Below, one piece after another: positions 20,188-27,487 of a stretch of DNA of 64,000 nt (position 1 is the first letter of the stretch; the number at the start of each line of letters is the position of its first letter). This DNA comes from a bacterium (GTDB lineage: Bacteria; Cyanobacteriota; Vampirovibrionia; Gastranaerophilales; Gastranaerophilaceae), in NCBI GenBank assembly GCA_017941035.1, contig JAGAXG010000039.1:1-64000 (forward strand). Direction: 5' to 3'. The position numbers and the translations under genes were made by a program. Below the pieces are notes generated by a model. It ran no database searches and was not told the DNA's origin. It saw only the letters and a list, made by a program, of their open reading frames with translations.

Positions 20188-21726
20188 ATGAAAATAAATA
20201 ATATTAATACCCCATCAATAAAGTTTAACGGTTCTATGGGAACATTATCAAATGCTCTTTACACTTTAAGCAACAATGATATGCTAAACGCATCTTTTGT
20301 TGATATTTTTGCAATGGACACTCCAAGAACAATCGTAGAAACAAAGAATCGAGGGAAACAAGCAGGAATTGAAATGGGATTTAGAGAATACACCGGAACG
20401 TTTATTGCGGAATTTTCGGCTGCAGTTTTTGCGATTATTGCTTCTAAATTTATTTCTAAAATAATTGCTCCTGAAATTAAAGTAAATTCTGGTTCTTGGA
20501 TTACAAATAACGGGTTAAATGTTTTTTCTGATATTTATAAAAAATCAGACAAAACTCCAAAAGGATATATAGAAAAAGTACTAAATTCTATGTCCGGTTT
20601 AGTCGGTGCAAAAACTAAGAACTTTGCAGATATTGATAGTGAAAAAACAAAACCGATTATTAAAAATTTAACAAAATTAATTACAGACAAAACGTATGAT
20701 AAAAAAACAAGGGAATACATTTTAGAAGATGTTAAAAATAGAATTATTGATTTATTAGGTGCAGACAATTCTATAACAATAAAATCTGAAAAAAATAAAT
20801 TGACGTCAAACCTTACACATTCTTTGAGAGATATTATTGATTCTGGTAAAAACATTTTCTTTACAGAATCAAAACTAGAATCAGAAGAAATTTTATCAAA
20901 GCTAAAACTAATGAATAAATTAAGAATTGGTATAGCAATACCTTTATCTATGGGACTTGCAATTACTAACCAATATATAAATCGTTATTTAACAAAAAAA
21001 AGAACAGGGATTGATAATTTTGTTGGTGAAAATAATTATGAAAATAATGTAGCCTCAAAAAATGAAAAGAAAAATGAAAAAGGTCTTTGGCTGAAAAAGA
21101 TAATATCAGCAGGAATTTTCATATTAATGCTTGCAAAAGTTATGGGAGTTAAAAAACCTACGGATTTGATTAAAAAATTAGAATTTGACGGGCCAGCAAC
21201 AAGTGGCGATGCTATTAAAACAATATATGGTACACTTATCTTAGGAAGAATTTTTGCATCCAAAGATTCAACAGAACTAAGAGAAACTAATGTAAGAGAT
21301 TATCTAGGCTTCTTAAATTGGCTTGTATTAGGAGGTTTTGTAGCAAAAGGTGTAGGTCAAATATTAGATCCTAAACAGAAAAAATTATTCAATATTTCAA
21401 AACAAGGAAAGGGTATAAAACATTGGCTTCAAAACGTATCACTTAAATCACAAAAAGAAATAATAGCACAGGGAGGGAATGTAAAATCAAATTTGAGAAA
21501 ATTAAATATCGCTCAAATGTCAGGGATTGCATATTCCAGTATAATGCTTGGTGTGCTCCTGCCTAAATTAAACATTTGGATGACGAGAAATAAATTTGAT
21601 AAAAAACAATATAATCAAAACTACGAAAAACAAAATAACGTCGTATTTAAATCAAACTATATTTCAATGGATGAATTCACTAAACGCAAAACTGAAAATT
21701 TTAATAAATTTGCGACAAACAAATAA
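20188..21726 (+). CDS. Large hypothetical membrane protein
   Basis: A 512-residue protein of unknown function. It starts with a short polar N-terminus (NTPSIKFNGSMG). A predicted membrane segment lies near 75-95 (FIAEFSAAVFAIIASKFIS), a long charged helical region spans 110-240, and further hydrophobic helices lie near 250-268, 305-322 and 380-400. It resembles the size and style of the protein at 61931-63577, though I cannot show homology by eye. AAGGAG sits at ideal distance from the ATG. The upstream structured leader suggests regulated expression. Confidence 0.6.
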   Translation: MKINNINTPSIKFNGSMGTLSNALYTLSNNDMLNASFVDIFAMDTPRTIVETKNRGKQAGIEMGFREYTGTFIAEFSAAVFAIIASKFISKIIAPEIKVNSGSWITNNGLNVFSDIYKKSDKTPKGYIEKVLNSMSGLVGAKTKNFADIDSEKTKPIIKNLTKLITDKTYDKKTREYILEDVKNRIIDLLGADNSITIKSEKNKLTSNLTHSLRDIIDSGKNIFFTESKLESEEILSKLKLMNKLRIGIAIPLSMGLAITNQYINRYLTKKRTGIDNFVGENNYENNVASKNEKKNEKGLWLKKIISAGIFILMLAKVMGVKKPTDLIKKLEFDGPATSGDAIKTIYGTLILGRIFASKDSTELRETNVRDYLGFLNWLVLGGFVAKGVGQILDPKQKKLFNISKQGKGIKHWLQNVSLKSQKEIIAQGGNVKSNLRKLNIAQMSGIAYSSIMLGVLLPKLNIWMTRNKFDKKQYNQNYEKQNNVVFKSNYISMDEFTKRKTENFNKFATNK

Positions 21727-25870: not shown

Positions 25871-26617
25871 TTAATTTATTCTTTGAAACATATAACCTAT
25901 TCCACGCGCTGTCAATATTAACTCAGGATTTGCAGGATCTGTTTCAAGTTTTGAACGCAATCTTGATATATGAACATCAACTACTCTTGTATCTATTCTG
26001 TGATCAGGCGGATATGCCCATACATGCTGCAAAATTTCGTTTCTTGAAAATGCTTGACCGGAATTGTTTACAAGTAACTCTAATAAACTAAACTCCATGC
26101 CTGTCAATCTTATTCTTTCATTTTTTCTATAAACTTGACGGCGCGCTGTATCTATTTTTATATTGCCTGTTGTTATTACATTTTTAGTAACTTTTCCTGT
26201 TGAAGTTGATATTTCACGATTATTTGTTCTACGTAAAACTGCTTTTACACGAGCTTCAAGCTCTTTTGGTGAAAAAGGCTTTATTACATAATCATCTGCA
26301 CCCAACTCTAAACCGGTAATTCTTTCTGAAACATCGCCTAAAGCAGTCAATATTATAATCGGAACATCTGATGTTCTTCTGATTTCACGAGTAACACCAT
26401 ATCCATCCATTTTTGGCATCATTACATCCAGTACAACCAAGTCAGGATTATACTTATTAAATGAAGCAACTGCTTCTTCACCATCTTGAGCTGTATAAAC
26501 ATCATAACCCGCCATTTTTAATCGAGTTTCCAAAATTCTTCTAATACTAGACTCATCGTCTGCTAAAAGGATTCTCTGACGATCTTCCTTTTCATTAGCT
26601 TCTACATTTTCTGACAT
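25871..26617 (-). CDS. rpaB: OmpR-family response regulator RpaB
   Basis: A 248-residue regulator with a receiver domain (acidic pair D20-D21, phospho-acceptor D64 in VVLDVMMP, T91, K113) and a C-terminal winged helix (EFSLLELLV to RGIGYMF). The sequence strongly resembles cyanobacterial RpaB, which binds HLR1 boxes and in photosynthetic relatives controls high-light and stress genes under the kinase NblS/Hik33. No kinase gene is nearby. An HLR1-like box lies upstream, consistent with autoregulation. The orthology call is from recognition, not alignment. Confidence 0.9.
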   Translation of the reverse strand: MSENVEANEKEDRQRILLADDESSIRRILETRLKMAGYDVYTAQDGEEAVASFNKYNPDLVVLDVMMPKMDGYGVTREIRRTSDVPIIILTALGDVSERITGLELGADDYVIKPFSPKELEARVKAVLRRTNNREISTSTGKVTKNVITTGNIKIDTARRQVYRKNERIRLTGMEFSLLELLVNNSGQAFSRNEILQHVWAYPPDHRIDTRVVDVHISRLRSKLETDPANPELILTARGIGYMFQRIN

Positions 26618-26710
26618 AGCCTTTTCCTACCTTAAATCTAACACTTACTAATACATAAATATAAAAAAATATTACGTTTTGTTTCTTTTTCTATACTTTT
26701 ATAACATTAT

Positions 26711-26726
26711 GTTACACTAAGTTACA
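26711..26726 (-). promoter_or_regulatory. HLR1-like RpaB-binding box upstream of rpaB
   Basis: GTTACA occurs twice with a 10-base period (26711-26716 and 26721-26726), about 95 bases before the rpaB start. The cyanobacterial HLR1 consensus is two (G/T)TTACA hexamers with this period. The two following W positions match only partly. Confidence 0.55.
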
Positions 26727-26752
26727 TGAAATTGCAAGGGGTTGATAGAAAT

Positions 26753-27487
26753 TTATAGTAAATTTGATTCAATTATTTTTCTGAATTTCTCTAAATCCTC
26801 GCGTGTATCAATCCCTACAGGAACAAAATCAACAACGGTTGTTTTTATTTTCATTCCGTTTTCCAATGCTCTCAATTGTTCAAGACTTTCAGACATTTCA
26901 AGCGGAGTTTGAGCCAATCTTGTCATAGCTTCTAAGGCTTTCCTTTTATATCCATAGATCCCAAGATGACCGTAATAATCAGCGAAACCTGAATTTCTTT
27001 CGTAAGGAATTTTTGAGCGAGAAAAATACAATGCGAATCCATTTTTATCTATTACACACTTCACAAGATTCTGATTTTCTGCATCTTGGGGAGTTATTTT
27101 TCGTATTAATGTCGAAATATCAGCATTGGCATCTTCTATAACATTTTTTATAACAGCATCAATACTTTCAGATTTTATTAACGGTTCATCTCCCTGTAAA
27201 TTACAGATATAATCAATTTCAGGATGACGAGAAACAACCTCCATAATTCTATCTGAACCGCATTTATGATCTATTGAAGTCATTTCTACCACTCCGCCAA
27301 AGCTTGTTACAGTATCAAATATGCGTTTATCATCAGTTGCAACGATTATCAAATCCGCCAATGTTGAAGATTCTGCTTTTTCATAAACCCATTGTATTAC
27401 AGGTTTGTCTGCAACTTTCAATAAAGGTTTCCCTTCCAATCTTGAAGATCCGTACCTCGCAGGTATTATTATTGCCGTTTTTCCCAT
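26753..27487 (-). CDS. kdsB: 3-deoxy-manno-octulosonate cytidylyltransferase (CMP-Kdo synthetase)
   Basis: KdsB activates Kdo with CTP for transfer to lipid A, so the cell makes lipopolysaccharide. The 244-residue protein begins with IIPARYGSSRLEGKPL (the CTP-binding loop) and has ATDDKRI, NLQGDEPLI (metal site), YFSRSKIPY, the GHLGIYGYK segment and the LEQLRALENGMKI motif. It is the last gene of a minus-strand run accD-accA-prmA-kdsB, 11 bases after prmA. Confidence 0.96.
   Translation of the reverse strand: MGKTAIIIPARYGSSRLEGKPLLKVADKPVIQWVYEKAESSTLADLIIVATDDKRIFDTVTSFGGVVEMTSIDHKCGSDRIMEVVSRHPEIDYICNLQGDEPLIKSESIDAVIKNVIEDANADISTLIRKITPQDAENQNLVKCVIDKNGFALYFSRSKIPYERNSGFADYYGHLGIYGYKRKALEAMTRLAQTPLEMSESLEQLRALENGMKIKTTVVDFVPVGIDTREDLEKFRKIIESNLL

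Follow-up and report, generated by a model that had tools for sequence, protein, structure and literature searches.

HLR1-type direct repeats in the nonphotosynthetic Gastranaerophilales, including one in the predicted rpaB promoter

The rpaB promoter region

In the window, by which we mean the whole 64,000-nucleotide stretch of Gastranaerophilales DNA analyzed here, the genes kdsB and rpaB both lie on the minus strand and are separated by a 135-bp gap. This gap harbors two perfect GTTACA hexamers on the plus strand (26711..26716 and 26721..26726), offset by exactly 10 bp, as the first-pass annotation had stated. In cyanobacteria, RpaB has a central place in the control of acclimation to light and acts on photosynthesis genes through the HLR1 element. 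The Gastranaerophilales (class Vampirovibrionia), gut relatives of cyanobacteria that do not photosynthesize, are common but poorly understood. The features of the locus are listed below.

25871..26617, minus strand: rpaB, encoding an OmpR-family response regulator (NCBIfam NF045944) without cysteine, orthologous to cyanobacterial RpaB
26701..26736, plus strand: extended array of four half-sites at 10-bp spacing (ATAACA, GTTACA, GTTACA, ATTGCA), the outer two degenerate
26709..26714, minus strand: predicted -10 element TAACAT (TAATAT or TAAGAT in relatives), overlapping half-site 2
26711..26726, plus strand: HLR1-type direct repeat GTTACA-CTAA-GTTACA, two perfect half-sites with a period of 10 bp
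26732..26737, minus strand: TTGCAA, the predicted -35 element for rpaB, separated from the -10 element by 17 bp
26753..27487, minus strand: kdsB (CMP-KDO synthetase), the upstream neighbor, whose end bounds the rpaB promoter region

Read on the rpaB strand, positions 26711..26726 spell TGTAAC-TTAG-TGTAAC, with the hexamers on the template strand relative to rpaB. Degenerate copies flank this box in the same 10-bp register (ATAACA at 26701 and ATTGCA at 26731), the letters of 26701..26736 being ATAACATTAT GTTACACTAA GTTACATGAA ATTGCA. In a whole-genome search, exact GTTACA-N4-GTTACA occurred once in 1.8 Mb, at this box. The HLR1 element of Cyanobacteria, KTTACAWW-N2-KTTACAWW, is bound by RpaB (PMC13421787). 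Like it, the rpaB box has two KTTACA half-sites with four bases between them; the two bases after each half-site are CT and TG, and because two of these four positions depart from A/T, we refer to the box as HLR1-type rather than canonical HLR1. With a spacing of N4, it does not match the WalR/VicR box of Bacillota, TGTWAH-N5-TGTWAH (PMC4168254). Another element, CGTAATATT or TTGTAATATT, was noted at 26670..26676 on the minus strand of the window; it recurs in most Gastranaerophilales relatives (L031 to L099), including relatives that have no box, at approximately 50 to 70 bp before the rpaB start.

The predicted promoter would place the rpaB transcription start near 26702, with the box spanning roughly -24 to -9. 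For cyanobacteria, HLR1 at about -45 to -66 is reported to activate and HLR1 over the promoter to repress, and relative to the predicted start the rpaB box lies inside the repression zone given there, -38 to +23 (PMC13421787). Among rpaB loci of the genus, the box was found within the frame TTGCAA-17-TAACAT/TAATAT in 27 of 27 (TTGCTT in a few), and wherever the two promoter elements were found together in a Gastranaerophilales relative, 17 bp lie between them. Half-site 2 reads TGTAAC in 25 of these 27 loci, while half-site 1 reads TGTAAM in 19 and TGTTAC or CGTTAC in 5 and is lost in 3; the spacer TTAG is conserved too.

No comparable strict box was detected upstream of rpaB in the other genera or other families examined, and the 330 bp preceding each of 13 cyanobacterial rpaB genes likewise gave none. 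The one exception noted is an N5 pair, GTTACAATTTAGTTACA (recorded also as TGTAACTAAATTGTAAC), with an 11-bp period and WalR-like spacing, approximately 120 bp before rpaB in a genome of family f14 (L213, G069). Given what stands before rpaB in those genera and families and in Cyanobacteriia, we rejected the idea that the box is an ancient autoregulatory site. The first-pass annotation had taken it as a trace of an ancient circuit that persists at rpaB and had made its conservation before rpaB orthologues the test; the box is kept in the genus only, as far as the genera and families examined go, and its persistence at this gene is not supported. The box is a genus-level, probably autoregulatory member of the operator class described below.

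A genome-wide class of intergenic repeats

The class was defined by the pattern KTTACA-N4-KTTACA, where K is G or T and a perfect site is spelled KTTACAWWNNKTTACAWW. The genome scan for HLR1 pairs that the first-pass annotation had proposed gave, in a full search, 15 such pairs, all of them intergenic. As a comparison, spacings outside the codon period gave 2 (N1), 2 (N2), 3 (N5), 5 (N6), 8 (N7), and 6 (N8) pairs in the same genome, and the excess at N4 over these was significant (Poisson p 5e-5), with no enrichment at N5. Peaks at N3 and N9, which are mostly coding, were set aside as codon periodicity rather than operators. At the other spacings from 0 to 20, 14 of 83 pairs were intergenic, compared to 15 of 15 at N4 (Fisher p = 4e-10); the count of 15 covers the whole genome, whereas the intergenic test was run with our own, approximate gene calls on 1.16 Mb (coding fraction, 0.91), about two-thirds of the genome, in stretches picked partly for holding hits. 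Because N4 pairs differ in this way from pairs at other spacings, the rpaB box belongs to a genuine class of operators. A scan of the genome allowing one mismatch showed no excess over the control (152 versus 149) and hid the signal, which is visible only with exact half-sites, resolved spacing, and intergenic location.

Over 53 sites from three genera, the consensus of the class is KTTACA-WWWN-KTTACA, with A or T at the three W positions in 51, 50, and 51 sites, a spacer preference in line with the HLR1 consensus. Two sites depart from A/T right after the first hexamer, and the rpaB box, with C there, is one of them. Sites with unambiguous targets in genomes G126 and G136 mostly face one way, with TGTAAM-N4-TGTAAM on the coding strand in 16 cases versus 2 by manual count. 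This main orientation was seen at 42 sites no more than 200 bp from a start codon, our own genome included, and 33 of them lie 43 to 101 bp before it. By eye, a TATAAT-like or TATACTTTATATATA sequence is found approximately 29 to 37 bp downstream of many sites, and a simple -10 scan of these regions gave a diffuse result. If read as -10 elements, these sequences would place the sites near -45 to -62, where cyanobacterial HLR1 activates.

Two further features of these regions were noted. TATACTTTATATATA, sometimes with GCAATTAT upstream, recurs after sites in L236, L237, L239, L256, L257, L266, and L269 and in C6 of our own genome, and it may be the promoter of an alternative sigma factor. Short tandem repeats stand between site and start codon in two genera (CATAGGATAGGATAGGAT in L242, L246, L248, and L269; GATAT repeats in L245).

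The neighbors of the sites in our own genome include a LysM/calpain-type protease, a weak RelA/SpoT-like match, and an AAA/M41-type protein, together with coaD, fabI, PFOR, and rpoB, which were named by eye from the sequence; many of the neighboring proteins have no Pfam match, and several sites lie in divergent gaps, which makes the true target uncertain. In relatives, the targets include a LysM-Amidase_3 cell-wall hydrolase and, by eye, HU and IF-3 genes. Five site-bearing loci are common to G126 and G136, and our own orthologues of several of these shared targets keep degenerate sites at similar distances; at the strict pattern, few individual targets are common between genera. The envelope role put forward in the first-pass annotation is plausible in that the LysM-amidase and LysM-protease targets fit it, but these are only a few of the targets. 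Two side observations concern neighboring genes and proteins. ATTACA-N4-TTTACA occurs in a divergent gap of our own genome (C36:62146..62161), 47 bp before a gene for a PAS histidine kinase. Many lineage-specific proteins, among them targets in our own genome (e.g., L001, L009, and L015) and 20188..21726 in the window, begin with a common xFxG-like or M..G(V/I)N motif in their N-terminal part, which may serve in sorting or export.

One alternative, which we consider unlikely, is that the TGTAAC repeats at rpaB are core promoter only, with TG-TAACAT as the -10 and no regulator involved, and resemble the operators by coincidence. The frame TTGCAA-17-TAAxAT indeed persists in several other genera and families without the TGTAAC repeat, the spacer TTAG is as well conserved as the half-sites, and the box breaks one consensus position; moreover, half-site 2 overlaps the -10 element, and its conservation may thus be due in part to the promoter. 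However, the box exactly matches the pattern of an operator class whose other members in its own genome are all intergenic. Half-site 1 lies in the promoter spacer, which is free of sequence demands, yet it reads TGTWAC or TGTAAA in 23 of the 27 genus loci, and the position at which it varies most is the one that the consensus lets vary.

RpaB and the distribution of the motif

The gene downstream of the box is of the RpaB type, as had been claimed. Its product passes the curated NCBIfam equivalog model NF045944 over the full length (361.8 bits; cut-off, 330), while the MtrA and WalR models score far lower on it and below their own cut-offs. In a tree, it falls into one clade with cyanobacterial RpaB (support, 100/99 and 99/96, with the bootstrap not fully settled), apart from WalR/MtrA-type and other OmpR-family regulators; its nearest named relatives are from Candidatus Gastranaerophilales. 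The recognition helix DTRVVDVH(I/V)SRLR.KLE is common to the window protein and cyanobacterial RpaB. Three OmpR-type DNA-binding domains are encoded in the genome, and the two that are not RpaB, at C6:73989 and C5:4198 of G000, have different recognition helices.

Cys59 of the cyanobacterial receiver domain is Thr in the window protein, which is free of cysteine throughout; the Cys-free form is common to the Gastranaerophilales looked at and to families f9, f14, and f15. Because a C59A substitution excluded direct redox sensing by Cys59 of cyanobacterial RpaB (reviewed in PMC13421787), we regard this residue as a trait of the cyanobacterial members that is not essential for orthology. Thiol-based redox control of the window protein is ruled out by the lack of any cysteine, and the redox role suggested in the first-pass annotation loses ground with it. 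In two genomes of family f14 (L284 in G125 and L285 in G108), RpaB matches in two segments, as if there were an insertion between the receiver and DNA-binding domains. A kinase of our own genome (L274) has the domain order HAMP-PAS-HisKA-HATPase, and its best model is NblS (NCBIfam NF045911), followed by WalK; its NblS score is 329 bits against a strict curated cut-off of 1000.

Among the 150 matches listed for 40 genomes of the genus, GTTACA pairs at spacings N1 to N9 numbered 4, 11, 16, 49, 22, 9, 9, 10, and 20, and 11 of the 49 N4 pairs listed are the rpaB box itself. Enrichment was then measured family by family as N4 pairs versus a reversed-pattern control. Our own family has 1,027 pairs versus 197, and three further families in which RpaB is present have 104 versus 16 (f9), 82 versus 3 (f14), and 42 versus 10 (f15), i.e., a 4- to 27-fold excess in four Vampirovibrionia families with RpaB. 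No enrichment was found in f10 (8 versus 9) and f11 (9 versus 11), in which other OmpR-family regulators are present and no RpaB was found. Because f8 (19 versus 62), f12 (20 versus 36), and f13 (8 versus 5) have RpaB without N4 enrichment, RpaB alone does not predict the motif; its presence is close to necessary, not sufficient, for enrichment. Two genomes of our own family rated 99% complete (G153 and G164) have no close RpaB match and an N4 motif that is still enriched, the missing RpaB being probably due to assembly gaps. The spacing peak fell at N4 again in three genomes from distant families, where 16 of the 18 loci inspected were classed as intergenic. As expected for a positive control, Cyanobacteriia showed N4 enrichment. 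Altogether, the HLR1-type operator class in this nonphotosynthetic lineage is real and conserved. An RpaB-HLR1 code without photosynthesis, as first proposed from the rpaB box, is supported by the class in our own genome, our own family, and three further families; the rpaB box itself is not ancestral.

Proposed regulation and comparison with known systems

We put at about two in three the probability that the rpaB box is an RpaB operator belonging to a genome-wide HLR1-type set through which RpaB activates most targets and represses its own gene. KTTACA-N4-KTTACA operators of this type would then serve Gastranaerophilales, Vampirovibrionales-type relatives, and Cyanobacteriia. RpaB, presumably phosphorylated by an NblS-like kinase, would activate most targets, where the repeat stands in one orientation upstream of a -10-like sequence, 43 to 101 bp before the start codon. 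At rpaB, we infer negative autoregulation because the box lies over the promoter: with RpaB bound in the stretch separating the -35 from the -10, RNA polymerase would be kept out and less RpaB would be made.

A different history, which we judge improbable, is that the regulon is real and read by RpaB and that its 10-bp likeness to HLR1 arose in parallel in Vampirovibrionia. On this view, TGTnAn direct repeats are recognized throughout the WalR/MtrA/RpaB group, and a version with a 10-bp period could have appeared separately. WalR reads TGTWAH-N5-TGTWAH (PMC4168254), the direct repeat recognized by MtrA is similar and of GTnAC type (PMC6265350), and a parallel origin of the 10-bp period keeps some weight because f8, f12, and f13 of the same class lack enrichment; against it, the half-site, the N4 spacing, the A/T bias, and the recognition helix are identical in both groups, and the RpaB proteins form one clade. 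That the N4 pairs are operators of another factor, either one of the two other OmpR-type regulators or an unrelated protein, is quite improbable: the genome does encode three OmpR-type DNA-binding domains and two genomes of our own family keep the motif without a close RpaB match, but families that lack RpaB and keep other OmpR-family regulators show no enrichment, the recognition helices of the paralogues are unlike that of RpaB, and cyanobacterial RpaB is known to use this motif (PMC13421787).

With the box taken as an RpaB operator within a conserved class, the distribution suggests that the RpaB-HLR1 code arose before it was put to use in photosynthesis, or at any rate does not depend on that use. 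Tentatively, and as a possibility that we hold at somewhat less than even, the last ancestor shared by Vampirovibrionia and Cyanobacteriia may already have had RpaB-HLR1, governing genes of cell surface and growth much as WalR and MtrA do, with photosynthesis genes added later and the Gastranaerophilales keeping it as a main regulon of lineage-specific, possibly exported proteins. The role of RpaB before photosynthesis is now testable, with the same operator code widespread in nonphotosynthetic relatives, and the set offered here is a first regulon for Gastranaerophilales. Homologues of RpaB, RpaA, and NblS in Melainabacteria have already been reported, with another function guessed (PMC3787301); as far as the portion of that report consulted goes, it deals with the proteins only and not with HLR1, operators, or a regulon. 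No paper tying HLR1 to Melainabacteria or Gastranaerophilales was found in the literature searched.

Compared to cyanobacterial HLR1, the repeats described here are alike in half-site, 10-bp period, class-wide A/T positions, and enrichment over control, and relative to predicted start sites their layout would be position dependent as well. They are unlike it in that the host is nonphotosynthetic, the targets are mostly lineage-specific proteins, binding is predicted, and the Gastranaerophilales rpaB copy breaks the A/T rule. The WalR/VicR box shares the half-site, the direct repeat, and a related regulator family, and some targets here are LysM cell-wall proteins, a kind of gene under WalR control; unlike here, its period is 11 bp rather than 10 bp, and the window protein passes the RpaB score and not the WalR score. 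MtrA of Actinomycetota, which controls cell wall and division, is likewise a related regulator with a GTnAC-type direct repeat (PMC6265350), but its half-site is more degenerate and its curated score is not reached here. All of the WalR/MtrA/RpaB group probably share this half-site, and it is the 10-bp period that marks the HLR1 kind.
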